Positions 9,351 to 13,422 of a stretch of DNA of 64,000 bases are shown in pieces. The translations under genes were made by a program, and so were the position numbers. The notes under the pieces are model-generated. The model was not told where the DNA came from, ran no database searches, and was given only the letters and a program-made list of their open reading frames with translations. Origin of the DNA: Nitrospinaceae bacterium (GTDB lineage Bacteria > Nitrospinota > Nitrospinia > Nitrospinales > VA-1). Positions within the stretch are counted from its first letter, which is position 1, and every line of letters starts with the position of its first letter. Location: contig BQJC01000001.1 in the NCBI GenBank assembly GCA_021604505.1, forward strand, positions 620,001-684,000, read 5' to 3'.

Positions 9351-10214
9351 ATGCAATGGATTGACGAAAAACCCTGGCGCGGAATCGCCCTGGAAATTGA
9401 GACCAACCTGTCGCCGCGCGAGATGATGATCCGCGCGGATATCGATAGGCCGCTTTCTAAAAACAAAAAGCTGAAATCCATGGCCAACCAGAAGGCGGTC
9501 CGCTTCTTCAAGGCCTTCGCCGAAGCCGGGGATGCGCGCATCGAGGCTTTCGGCAACATGGAAAGCGAGCCCATCATGTGGGTGCTGGCGGCGTTGAACG
9601 AGGATTTCACCTTGCCGGGCGGCGATGCGGTGCGCGGTTGCGTCCTCCTTTTCTCCAAAAATGAGAAACGCGAAAACGTTCAGGCCCAGTTCCTGACCCT
9701 TCGGGGCGCAGGCAACAGCACGCTCCATCTGCCGGTCAAGGTCCGGTCCACCTTCAGAAATACCCTGCTGTTATCCCCCATGTTTGACGACGAAATGACT
9801 CAAAAGGCCAAAGCGACCATCGATGCGGGCCGGCAGGCGATTTCCGTGTTCGCGTCCGACGCCGGGCGTCTGGCCGAGCATCAGGTGGATGACGAGACGG
9901 CTAACCGCTACCTGTTCGACGTTTTCCAGCCGGGAGTTTCCAGCCAATTGCCTGTGATTGGCGAAAAAGAGATCGAAGAACAAGCCGAGGACAAAACCAG
10001 AAAAGCCATCGCGGCGTTTAAAAACGCTCCGGGGCAGGAGCTGGAATCCGCCCGCATGACCGCCTGGGGACTGCTGAACGCGGTGACCTACACGGTCGAT
10101 CATCTTCTGCTCAAAAATCAGGATACCCGGTTGCGCCAGGCCTGGTTCGGGTTCAACGCGACGGTCAAGAAACGTGCGTTCGATCTGGCTATAGGCCTGT
10201 TGAAAAAGGATTGA
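9351..10214 (+). CDS. DUF932-like protein, first of tandem pair
   Basis: A 287-residue protein resembling the phage/plasmid-like DUF932 family (TIGR03299): KPWRGIALEI opening, NQKAVRFFKAFAEAGDARIEAFG, the IMWVLAALNEDF strand, a KVRSTFRNT segment, and the C-terminal TAWGLLNAVTYTVDH followed by RLRQAWFG. The role of DUF932 proteins is unknown. They are frequent on phages and plasmids, but no phage gene adjoins here. The gene is followed after 4 bases by a homologous gene in the same frame order. GC content matches the chromosome, so any transfer is old. The ribosome site before the ATG is weak. Confidence 0.75.
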   Translation: MQWIDEKPWRGIALEIETNLSPREMMIRADIDRPLSKNKKLKSMANQKAVRFFKAFAEAGDARIEAFGNMESEPIMWVLAALNEDFTLPGGDAVRGCVLLFSKNEKRENVQAQFLTLRGAGNSTLHLPVKVRSTFRNTLLLSPMFDDEMTQKAKATIDAGRQAISVFASDAGRLAEHQVDDETANRYLFDVFQPGVSSQLPVIGEKEIEEQAEDKTRKAIAAFKNAPGQELESARMTAWGLLNAVTYTVDHLLLKNQDTRLRQAWFGFNATVKKRAFDLAIGLLKKD

Positions 10215-10218
10215 GGCG

Positions 10219-11115
10219 ATGGAGTGGACGAACGAAAAACCCTGGCAGGGATTGGGTGTGGAAATCGCATCCCACCTGTCCGCCCGCGAGATGTCGGTCA
10301 AACTGCAACTCGATTGGGAGGTGGTCAAAACCCCGTCGCAACGACCGAAGTCCCCGGCCAATCAGGAGACCTTCCGTTTCTTCAAAGCGTATGTTGAAGC
10401 CGCGGATCTTCGCATCGAATCCATCGGCAGCCTCGACGACGGACGCATCATCTGGGCCCTGGTTCCGTTGAACGAGGATTTTTCCCTGGTGGATATCGAC
10501 CCGGTCAAAGGTTACCTGCTGATGGCTTCCCGCCATGAGAACCGGCAGTCCGTCGAAATCCTGTTCCTCACGGTCCGCGAAGTTGGACACAACATGCTTC
10601 AGGTTCCCGTCAAAGTGCGGTCCACGCTCAAAAACATCTTCCGCAAGCAGTTCACCAATACCTTTCCCTTTCTGAACCAGATTCCGCAGAAGTTCGACGA
10701 CGCCATGAACAAAAAAGCCAGAGACGCAATTGAGGCCGGTCGTAAAGCAATTTCCGCGTTCGCCTCCGACGCCGGGCGGCTGGCAAATCACAAGGTGGAT
10801 GACCAGACGGCCCTGCGCTATTTTTTCGATGTCTTCCAGCCGGATGTTTCCAGCGCAACGCCTGTCATTGGAGAAAAAGAGATCGAAGAAAAAGCCGACG
10901 ACAAAACCAGAAACGCCGTCGAGGCTCTCAAAAATGCTCCGGGCCAGGAGTTGGAAACCGCGCATCAAACCGCCTGGGGTCTATTGAACGCCGTGACCTA
11001 CACCGTCGATCACCATCTCGGCAAAAACCCGGATTCCCGATTGCGGCAGGCGTGGTTCGGGACCAACGCAAAAACCAAGAAACGGGCATTTGAGTTGGCA
11101 CTGGAGTTGTTGTAG
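10219..11115 (+). CDS. DUF932-like protein, second of tandem pair
   Basis: A 298-residue paralogue of the preceding product. It shares WTNEKPWQGLGVEI (WIDEKPWRGIALEI in the first), NQETFRFFKAYVEAADLRIESIG, IIWALVPLNEDF, VPVKVRSTLKN, DAGRLANHKVDDQTALRYFFDVFQP (named in part) and TAWGLLNAVTYTVDHH. The first 50 residues, LGVEIASHLSAREMSVKLQLDW, match the canonical DUF932 start (PWHGLG, then a W two turns on) better than those of the first copy. A GATTGAGG stretch provides a ribosome site overlapping the upstream stop. The two copies are diverged, so the duplication is not recent. Function unknown. Confidence 0.78.
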   Translation: MEWTNEKPWQGLGVEIASHLSAREMSVKLQLDWEVVKTPSQRPKSPANQETFRFFKAYVEAADLRIESIGSLDDGRIIWALVPLNEDFSLVDIDPVKGYLLMASRHENRQSVEILFLTVREVGHNMLQVPVKVRSTLKNIFRKQFTNTFPFLNQIPQKFDDAMNKKARDAIEAGRKAISAFASDAGRLANHKVDDQTALRYFFDVFQPDVSSATPVIGEKEIEEKADDKTRNAVEALKNAPGQELETAHQTAWGLLNAVTYTVDHHLGKNPDSRLRQAWFGTNAKTKKRAFELALELL

Positions 11116-11264
11116 AAGGTCAGGTAGGAAGGCGGCAATTTTTGACGGACCCGGCAAATTTTTCTTTTGCGCGACCGGGATTTTGACGATCAATAAAGTA
11201 GCGATGAACCTTTAATTTGTTGGATTTAAATCGGTTTTTCAGTAAATTTGCAGGTGCGTCACTT

Positions 11265-11281
11265 TTGGCATAGAGATTGCT
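11265..11281 (+). promoter_or_regulatory. Candidate sigma-54 promoter in gene-free region
   Basis: TTGGCATAGAGATTGCT matches the -24/-12 consensus YTGGCACGrNNNTTGCW at all fixed positions but two (C to T and G to A after TGGCA), with correct GG-to-GC spacing. It points away from the DUF932 genes into a region without a recognised gene. Start of transcription would fall near 11291. The window also encodes a sigma-54 activator (19870-21321), so sigma-54 is used in this organism. Confidence 0.55.
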
Positions 11282-11291
11282 CTTTATAGTA

Positions 11292-11460
11292 ATGAAGATT
11301 CGAAATGGCACTGCCTCCTCCAACGAATTGGGTCACTCCAGACCCAATTCGTGGCGTGCCTAACCCGCCGCAGAATCATTTTCCATCTTAAAATTTTCAA
11401 GAAATTCTATTTGGTTCTTATGCCAAAGGGCTTGGATATGGACCCGGGGTGGGCTTTGTT
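11292..11460 (+). ncRNA. Candidate sigma-54-dependent small RNA with strong hairpin
   Basis: This is inferred transcript space directly behind the sigma-54 promoter match. It contains a perfect 12-bp stem, ACGAATTGGGTC (11323-11334) with GACCCAATTCGT (11341-11352), and a 6-base loop. A pyrimidine-rich stretch precedes the stem. A weak CAAAG/CTTTG stem followed by TTCTTTTTT near 11460 could end transcription, as could the double hairpin repeat after it. A 23-codon frame from the ATG at 11292 to 11363 exists but has no ribosome site. The whole gap 11116-11579 has no other gene that I can see. The RNA itself is hypothetical. Confidence 0.35.
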
Positions 11461-11467
11461 CTTTTTT

Positions 11468-11550
11468 AATCCCCTCATCCTCGCCTTCTCCCCTTTGGGG
11501 AGAAGGAATTATTTATCTTCCTCTCCCTCTGGGAGAGGATTGAGGTGAGG
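11468..11550. repeat. Double-hairpin intergenic repeat
   Basis: Two perfect stems in tandem, CTTCTCCCC/GGGGAGAAG with loop TTT and CCTCTCCC/GGGAGAGG with loop TCT, are enclosed by complementary outer arms (CCCCTCATCCTC and GAGGATTGAGGTGAGGG). This architecture is typical of dispersed REP/MITE-like elements. It lies between the convergent ends of the second DUF932 gene and the kelch gene and could terminate either transcript. Confidence 0.75.
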
Positions 11551-11579
11551 GTTCCAGTTGAAGAATGGTGGTGGGCATC

Positions 11580-12536
11580 CTAATCCAAAGAAAAGATCCA
11601 GTGGCTGCTGCTGTAACTGCCGCCGGGAGTGGGTCCTCCCGTCAAGGTGTGGAGTTTTGCATCCAGCACCGCGCTTCCCAGTCCGTGCCGTCCTTCCGGC
11701 ATCGGAGGCATGGTCACCCAGACATTTTTTTCCGGGTCATAGGCTTCGTTTTCCACAAACGTCCCTTCCCCCGATTCCCCGCCCAGAACATGAATCTTCC
11801 CATTCAAGACTTGTGAGGTGATGCCGCTCCGCGCCGTTGGCAGGGGGCTGAGCTGGGTCCAGCGTCCCGATTTGGGATCGAAGGCTTCATTGGCGTTCAG
11901 ATTGTTCCGATAACTGACGTTCACCCGCCCGCCGATGGCGTAAAGGATCCCATTGTGGCTGGAAACCGCCAGATGATCGCGGGGAGTTGGGACAGGCGCC
12001 AGTTTCTGCCATTGGTTCGTTTCCGGATCGTAGACCTCAAGTGCGTCGGTGTTGATGAGGCGAAAATATCTGCGATACGCGCCGCCCACGGCGTAAATTT
12101 TTCCGTCGATCACTCCCGCCGCAAGCGCGCCTCTTTCGATGGACATGGGTGCTTTTTCTGTCCATAGATCCTCGGCGGGGTCGTAGGCGTAGGTGACGTT
12201 AGTGGGGCTCCAGGTGCTGGAATCGAATCCACCGATGACATAGAGCTTGCCGTTCACAACCGTTGCTGTGGTGTGGTGTAACGAGCGGGGCAGGGGGCTT
12301 TTCGATTCCCAGGTTCCGGTTGCCGGATCGAAAGCTTCTACTTTGTCAGTGACGCCTTGCGGTGTGAAACCACCCACCACGTAGATTTTTCCTGCCAGAT
12401 TGGCGACGGCCACCTCGGTGCGCTCGGTGGGAGCGGACTTTCCGTCCTTCCAGTTCCCTTGAGGCGCCGCGAAAATCAGACCGGCGCACCCCAAAAGAAA
12501 AATCAAAGTAATAACAAGCGTTCTGGGAAAGATCAT
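11580..12536 (-). CDS. Exported kelch-repeat protein
   Basis: A 318-residue protein with an N-terminal signal peptide (PRTLVITLIFLLGCAGLIFA, cleavage near AAPQG) and about six kelch repeats of roughly 45 to 50 residues. Each carries a hydrophobic strand plus a Gly-Gly pair, as in IYVVGGF, LYVIGGF, IYAVGG, LYAIGG, IHVLGG, with partner motifs EAFDPATGTW, YDPETNQW and AFDPKSGRW. This predicts a six-bladed beta-propeller in the periplasm or outside the cell. The ATG at 12536 was chosen over 12599 because the signal peptide starts there and the longer form overlaps kdsA. Kelch propellers bind proteins or sugars or act as oxidases or epimerases; no catalytic residue points to one. It follows kdsA by 22 bases. 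Confidence 0.85.
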   Translation of the reverse strand: MIFPRTLVITLIFLLGCAGLIFAAPQGNWKDGKSAPTERTEVAVANLAGKIYVVGGFTPQGVTDKVEAFDPATGTWESKSPLPRSLHHTTATVVNGKLYVIGGFDSSTWSPTNVTYAYDPAEDLWTEKAPMSIERGALAAGVIDGKIYAVGGAYRRYFRLINTDALEVYDPETNQWQKLAPVPTPRDHLAVSSHNGILYAIGGRVNVSYRNNLNANEAFDPKSGRWTQLSPLPTARSGITSQVLNGKIHVLGGESGEGTFVENEAYDPEKNVWVTMPPMPEGRHGLGSAVLDAKLHTLTGGPTPGGSYSSSHWIFSLD

Positions 12537-12558
12537 GAGAGTGTTCCTTAAAGAGCAA

Positions 12559-13422
12559 TCAGGGCGATACCGGTTGCGGGTCCTTTCCCCGCACCACACG
12601 GGCGATGGGATTGATTTGTTGCAACAGTTCCGGCAGGGTGTCGAGTTTCAACATATTCGGTCCGTCAGAAAGCGCATTGTCCGGATCGGGGTGGATTTCC
12701 ATGAACAGCGCGTCGCACCCGACCGCCACCGCCCCGCGGGTGAGATCGGGGATGAGTTCCCGCTGGCCGCCGCTTTTGGTTCCCTGACCGCCCGGCAATT
12801 GCAGGCTGTGCGTGGCATCGAAGACGACAGGATAACCGTATTCCCGCATCAGGGCCAAAGAACGCATGTCCACCACCAGATTGTTGTAACCGAACATGAA
12901 GCCGCGCTCGGTCAGCAGGATATTCTCTGTGCCGCCTTGTTCCACCTTGCGGACGACGTTTTTCATGTCCCAGGGAGCCATGAACTGTCCCTTTTTGACA
13001 TTGACAGGTTTGCCCGATTGGGCGGCTTTCACCAGCAGGTCCGTCTGCCGGCACAAGAAGGCGGGAATTTGCAAAACGTCCAGCACTTCGGCGGCAGGAC
13101 CGATTTCCTCTTCCTTATGAACATCTGACAGCACCGGAATTTGCAACTCCTCACGAATCTTTTTCAACACGGCCAATCCGTTGCGTAAACCCGGTCCGCG
13201 AAACGAATCGATGGAGGACCGGTTGGCTTTGTCGTAAGACGCCTTAAAGATGAAAGGCACGCCTGCATCGCTGGTGATGCGTTTGAGTTTTTCCGCCGTT
13301 TCCCTGGCGTTTTTTTCCGACTCGATGACGCAGGGGCCCGCGATCAAGGCCAGGGGGTGGTCCCCACCCATGGAAACGGAACCGATTTCAATGGCTTTCG
13401 TGGTTGGCAGTGAAAGGCTCAT
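12559..13422 (-). CDS. kdsA: 3-deoxy-8-phosphooctulonate (Kdo-8-P) synthase
   Basis: Condenses phosphoenolpyruvate with arabinose-5-phosphate to make Kdo-8-phosphate, committed step to the inner core of lipopolysaccharide. The 287-residue protein has [10 protein letters not shown] at about residue 26, [68 protein letters not shown] and a C-terminal [19 protein letters not shown]. All are diagnostic. A cysteine in LIAGPC indicates the metal-dependent class. The start overlaps the stop of the upstream receiver-like gene by 4 bases (ATGA), so translation is probably coupled. No kdsB, kdsC or pyrG neighbour is visible. Confidence 0.96.

Follow-up and report, generated by a model that had tools for sequence, protein, structure and literature searches.

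What does a sigma-54 promoter serve when it faces away from every gene around it? One such site lies in a 464-nt interval (11116-11579) of the window, by which we mean the whole 64,000-nt stretch of Nitrospinaceae DNA analysed here, and a first-pass annotation had read it, together with a pyrimidine-rich leader and a perfect 12-bp stem-loop, as the start of a possible small RNA. The interval is gene-free, as that annotation had it, lying between a DUF932 ORF and a Kelch-repeat gene, and a survey of the window's ORFs revealed no convincing gene within it. We propose, from sequence, that a trans-acting sRNA dependent on sigma-54 is encoded there and would repress translation of one flagellin, here termed class 2, and we place the probability of this reading at about four in five. 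The features of the locus are collected in Table 1.

Table 1. Features of the sRNA locus, in window positions.
Feature	Position	Strand	Remark
DUF932 ORF	end 11115	+	left border of the gene-free interval
TTTTGACG, copy 1, putative enhancer (activator) site	11140..11147	+	at -125 from the promoter
TTTTGACG, copy 2, putative enhancer site	11181..11188	+	at -84; kept in g1 and g8
Sigma-54 promoter TTGGCATAGAGATTGCT	11265..11281	+	consensus match; GG 41/41, TTGC 41/41 loci
sRNA core	11292..11362	+	covariance model match 11293-11362; predicted 5' end ~11292
Antisense segment	11293..11321	+	complementary to class-2 flagellin start region
Antisense part, 5' tail UGAAGAUUCGAA	within 11293..11321	+	pairs with flagellin codons 3-7
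Antisense part, AUGGCA	within 11293..11321	+	start codon and codon 2
Antisense part, CUGCCUCCUCC	within 11293..11321	+	spacer and Shine-Dalgarno
Helix 1, 5' strand (GGCAC.GCC)	11307..11315	+	predicted to open on target pairing
Helix 2, perfect 12-bp stem-loop	11323..11352	+	ACGAATTGGGTC-ACTCCA-GACCCAATTCGT
Helix 1, 3' strand (GGCGUGCC)	11353..11360	+	pairs with 11307-11315 (outer stem)
Candidate terminator hairpin	11484..11506	+	inside dispersed repeat ~11464-11551; sole terminator-like site
Kelch-repeat gene	11580-12599	-	right border of the gene-free interval

Promoter and putative activator sites

The promoter match proved to be an excellent site. When the loci are read base by base across the order, the -24 GG and the TTGC are invariant in all 41, and in every one of them the -24/-12 element (GG-N10-GC) stands at the correct distance from the predicted start. 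A conserved RNA block, TGAAGATTCG, which opens with TGAAG, begins 11-12 nt past the -12 C in the 41 loci; it thus starts at the predicted 5' end of the sRNA, a sigma-54 start being expected about there.

A search of the 3.64-Mb genome with the strict pattern YTGGCAYN5TTGCW gives 13 sites, and with the pattern read backward 5. The remaining 12 sites include one each before fliK, fliL, a type IV pilin-like gene and a PilZ gene; those at fliK and fliL make it plausible that sigma-54 serves the flagellar cascade in this genome, which has one RpoN gene (56 of the 60 genomes encode RpoN). Among the 13 promoters, that of the sRNA alone has a pair of TTTTGACG sites, and TTTTGACG/AATTGACG is kept at about the position of copy 1 in genus g1 and in g8; we infer an enhancer role for the pair. 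Another strict sigma-54 site, G000:C1:715449 (L321), has one TTTTGACG at -50 and lies before an uncharacterized 117-aa ORF; the activator of the sRNA may have a second target there.

Structure of the predicted RNA

The 12-bp stem-loop is present as the first-pass annotation described it, but the structure is larger than a single hairpin, comprising two helices, this stem-loop (helix 2) and an outer stem (helix 1, 11307-11315 with 11353-11360), in an RNA whose 5' end would lie at ~11292. The RNA from 11291 to 11362 folds at -31.7 kcal/mol (z = -6.2). In an alignment of 30 sequences, both-side changes occur in 8 of the 11 pairs of helix 2, while helix 1, with 97% of cells paired, has a compensatory change in 2 of its 8 pairs; over both helices together 94.7% of cells are paired and 10 pairs have double changes. 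The covariation analysis of related genomes that had been proposed as a check of the stem finds compensatory changes in both helices, with 42 double-change cells where shuffles give 12.6 and slid versions 3-14, which supports the two predicted helices. Left unpaired are the 5' tail, UGAAGAUUCGAA, a bulge that contains CCUCC, and the apical loop, which in many species has a second CCUCC. We rejected a CsrA sponge of the CsrB type: the loops are CUCC/CCUCC and hold no GGA, and the GGA of helix 2 in relatives sits in the stem.

Distribution and genomic context

BLAST matches to the interval were found in 35 of 60 relatives, most of them being one block of ~100 nt that runs from the promoter to the outer stem. 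A covariance model made from 30 copies matched 42 of 77 genomes of the phylum, confined to four families of one order of marine Nitrospinota, where a few of those genomes' matches are antisense strands of flagellins (the sole match of G004 included) and four matches come from genus g7, where they represent a paralogous 'b' form; in 13 genomes from other orders the model matched nothing. An exact scan for the signature over 84,980 species genomes returned 34 records, of which 33 are titled Nitrospinota, Nitrospina or Nitrospinaceae and the remaining one, a MAG, Chloroflexi. Conservation of promoter and stem in relatives had been set beforehand as the test of the small-RNA reading; the two are kept together, along with the start spacing, in 41 loci across the four families, and this supports the reading. 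One genome of family f3 (G038) carries two copies, each with a promoter. Rfam gave no family match on the window, and at a relaxed threshold nothing above chance; in the open PMC literature we found no paper on small RNAs in Nitrospina. We class it as a new sRNA family of the trans-acting base-pairing kind, outside the named families.

The g7 'b' copies (G032:C46:46580, G035:C3:6829, G023:C57:405 and G016:C5:4575; L070, L071, L072, L075) have no sigma-54 promoter. Three of the four lie directly upstream of an ORF of 56-63 aa for which Pfam gives no match, and the sequence of the copies admits the reading MKIRIAIATSNG...; given this position and this reading, the 'b' copies could be either leader elements or sRNAs that have diverged.

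The sRNA locus is largely syntenic. Many genomes have a nucleoside-phosphorylase-type gene upstream of the sRNA in the same orientation and, downstream of it, a Kelch and/or DAHP synthase gene on the other strand with NfeD beyond. The sRNA is usually convergent with the Kelch or DAHP synthase gene; exceptions to this arrangement include G014, G018, G019 and G038b. Where those usual neighbours are present, no co-directional gene was found close downstream of the sRNA among the neighbour genes, and a leader or riboswitch is for this reason a poor fit. The DUF932 genes that adjoin the sRNA are duplicated in tandem (window 9351-10214 and 10219-11115), and G001 shares this arrangement; 24 of 60 relatives have the family, in most of them elsewhere in the genome.

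The one terminator-like hairpin at the sRNA locus is weak, since 1 such site compares with 0.9 in shuffles, and we rejected it as a convincing terminator of this copy. Relatives in g3, g4, g6, g7 and g8 have a GGCTCCC...GGGAGCC hairpin ~100-125 nt past the sRNA start. A palindromic repeat (CCCTCATCCTC...GGTGAGGG) occupies window positions 11464-11551; it is dispersed, seven further, partial copies being present in the genome, and may terminate transcription between sRNA and Kelch gene.

Class-2 flagellin as the predicted target

The clue to a target came from weak matches in the first search: these fell at the starts of flagellin genes, on the antisense strand. Flagellated genomes carry several tandem flagellins each, and nucleotides 1-29 of the RNA are antisense to the Shine-Dalgarno sequence, start codon and codons 2-7 of one of them, class 2 (leader ...AATCATGGAGGAT..., coding ATGCCAGTTCGAATCTTC). 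What had been noted as a pyrimidine-rich leader is the anti-Shine-Dalgarno part of this 29-nt stretch. The RNA is encoded away from its predicted target, the sRNA gene being on contig C1 at 631.3 kb and the flagellin cluster on C3 at ~197.9 kb.

Duplex energies with class 2 are -44.3 kcal/mol in the window's own genome (G000), -42.1 in G030 and -46.1 in G037. None of the control start regions does equally well (0/131 in G000, where the controls were drawn from 464 kb, 0/64 in G030 and 0/60 in G037), the z-score being -7.0 in the own genome and -6.7 to -8.1 over the three; the best of 1000 shuffled RNAs comes to -31.1, -25.0 and -31.4, respectively, short of the native value in each case. With up to two mismatches allowed, the seed pattern is found in the own genome only at the class-2 flagellin start, besides the RNA gene itself. 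When the RNA is cofolded with class 2, the predicted duplex runs unbroken from the Shine-Dalgarno sequence to codon 7 and leaves helix 2 intact (ddG -23.6). Class 1 is a weaker partner (-31 to -35) and class 3 usually a poor one. As judged from these comparisons, the complementarity of RNA and flagellin is beyond chance.

The paired codons of the target are also poor in synonymous change. Synonymous variation in class 2 is 0.00, 0.27, 0.34 and 0.10 at codons 2-5, against 0.50 downstream in the same genes, and the same codons show no dip of this size in class 1 (~0.45) or class 3 (~0.54). A few changes are matched on both sides. In G038, RNA ACAGGCA faces TGCCTGT in the best flagellin (proline CCA -> CCT), with a native energy of -42.8 against -39.6 and -39.7 with foreign RNAs; in the g7 'b' form, RNA TTGCCAT goes with flagellins that start ATGGCA. 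In the own genus one A-G mismatch interrupts the duplex (RNA GAAATGG, target CCAGTTC), and none of the flagellins found there restores the pair. When RNAs are exchanged between genera, the mean energy is -38.8 for native and -37.4 for swapped pairs, nearly equal because the seed hardly varies; with swapping costing so little, the suggested co-evolution of RNA and target rests on few events.

Among genomes of the order that are at least 90% complete, the RNA is present in 18 of 19 with at least four Flagellin_N genes and in 1 of 9 of the others (Fisher p = 2.5e-5, an optimistic value since the genomes are related); strict co-occurrence of the RNA with a flagellin carrying TTCGAATCTT is not significant (p = 0.21). 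In G014 and G018 the pairing is less good, and in G010, which carries the RNA, the search for flagellins found none. This last genome is 95% complete, and CsrA and FliW were found in it beside the sRNA; its flagellin cluster may be absent from the assembly.

Direction of the effect and alternative readings

The class-2 flagellin has a sigma-28-like site, TAAAG-N15-CCGATA, ~200 nt before its start codon. We also considered CGATAA immediately upstream of the class-2 ribosome site as its sigma-28-like promoter and rejected it, as it is part of a conserved junction and TAAAG-N15-CCGATA is better. The class-2 leader is ~200 nt long, with a GGGTTA...TAACCC junction, and class-2 and class-3 leaders contain conserved GGA(GG)-loop hairpins that resemble CsrA sites (L158, G000:C3:195000-203000, and the flagellin clusters of relatives). 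CsrA is encoded in 45 of 60 genomes and FliW in 44 of 60. On the strength of the sigma-28-like site and the GGA-loop leader, class 2 would be a late gene that is also under CsrA-FliW control.

These same leaders give some room to an opposite effect, in which the tail, pairing with codons 3-7 alone, would disrupt a hairpin sequestering the Shine-Dalgarno sequence and either increase translation or compete with CsrA for GGAGG sites. The predicted class-2 leaders do pair GGAGGAU with codons 5-6 (AAUCUU), and their several CsrA-type hairpins, in genomes that mostly encode CsrA and FliW, would suit such a role; but the conserved complementarity takes in the start codon and the Shine-Dalgarno sequence, the classic geometry of repression, and CCUCC is conserved adjoining the tail, so that we regard activation as unlikely. 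The CCUCC of the bulge, repeated in the apical loop of many species, might instead mark a general anti-Shine-Dalgarno regulator for which flagellin is one target among several or many, and the fair pairing with class 1 agrees with this. Conservation within the RNA is, however, highest in the 5' tail, a match to flagellin codons and not to a Shine-Dalgarno sequence, and controls that bear a Shine-Dalgarno sequence score far worse (own genome: ~464 kb); we hold a general regulator to be quite improbable.

A micropeptide reading of the block (MKIRNGTASSNELGHSRPNSWRA in the window) has in its favor an NTG before AAG-ATT-CGA in all copies and short open frames, yet the base before TGAAG is free (A15 T14 G9 C3), lengths change in all three frames with the frame end varying from 12 to >37 codons, third codon positions are equally invariant, and no leader or ribosome site would lie downstream of the predicted 5' end, all of which leaves it very little credence. 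A chance promoter match beside an unrelated hairpin or repeat could be entertained from a single genome only, and conservation, covariation and synteny across the order have already refuted it.

Proposed mechanism and significance

Promoter, start spacing, structure, complementarity and synteny are conserved in the genomes compared, and repression of class-2 flagellin is the reading we prefer. We infer the following course of events, including transcription and its activator, the duplex in the cell, the direction of its effect and its timing. Sigma-54 RNA polymerase, together with an enhancer-binding protein at the TTTTGACG pair, would transcribe the gene from ~11292. The RNA would leave its 5' tail, UGAAGAUUCGAA, unpaired and fold into a lower helix bearing the CCUCC bulge and a strong upper hairpin. 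Its tail would nucleate on codons 3-7 of the class-2 mRNA, and from there pairing would spread over codon 2 and the start codon and through the Shine-Dalgarno sequence, with helix 1 opening and helix 2 staying closed. With the ribosome site covered, translation would be repressed, and an RNA antisense to the start of the flagellin message would very probably shut off flagellin production.

The sigma-54 sites before fliK and fliL, set against the sigma-28-like site of class 2, suggest that the RNA probably acts at the hook stage, as a brake that holds back or tunes one flagellin during this earlier stage. It is tempting to go further and imagine a sigma-54 RNA checkpoint that silences class 2, and partly class 1, at the hook stage while sparing class 3, and so sets the order of flagellins in the filament, its sequence having arisen as an antisense copy of a flagellin start and then become locked across the order; this extension is tentative, and we would sooner doubt it than assert it.

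Were the proposal true, a free-standing sigma-54 sRNA directed at a flagellin start codon would connect the hook stage to filament production directly through RNA, and tandem flagellins with graded complementarity would offer a natural test of the ordering of filament subunits. The Nitrospinota, ecologically important and hard to grow, gain a conserved sRNA family with a predicted target and with Hfq undetected. Hfq is the partner of such sigma-54 sRNAs as Qrr1-5; PF17209 matched none of the 60 genomes, against 5 of 14 control genomes, and a divergent Hfq is possible.

Comparison with known systems

GlmY and CrcZ are sigma-54-dependent sRNAs. The Vibrio Qrr1-5 RNAs of quorum sensing are likewise free-standing genes with sigma-54 promoters and upstream activator sites (PMC8043402, PMC11407668), as is proposed here; targets and partners differ, and there is no shared sequence or Rfam family.

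Flagellin translation is controlled by CsrA-FliW in Bacillus subtilis also. The same holds for Campylobacter jejuni (PMC11187230), and here too the genes and GGA-loop leaders are present, with control acting at the flagellin leader and ribosome site; unlike that protein-based system, the sRNA would be an additional RNA layer on the same mRNA.

MotR and FliX of E. coli are sRNAs of the flagellar regulon that depend on sigma-28, bind Hfq and pair inside the fliC coding sequence (PMC10578931). Like them, the Nitrospinota sRNA would be a flagellar-regulon RNA aimed at flagellin mRNA, whereas its promoter is sigma-54, Hfq is undetected, and its pairing lies over the ribosome site. The C. jejuni sRNAs FlmE (CJnc230) and FlmR (CJnc170) base-pair with flagellar mRNAs, FlmE being linked to RpoN, mostly processed from the flgE mRNA, and a repressor of flgM and Cj1387c (PMC11187230). 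The likeness lies in the pairing with flagellar mRNAs within a cascade of sigma-54 and sigma-28 stages, without sequence relation, the signature of our sRNA being found in Nitrospinota records and the one titled Chloroflexi; in contrast to FlmE, the Nitrospinota sRNA would be an independent gene with its own sigma-54 promoter, antisense to flagellin itself.
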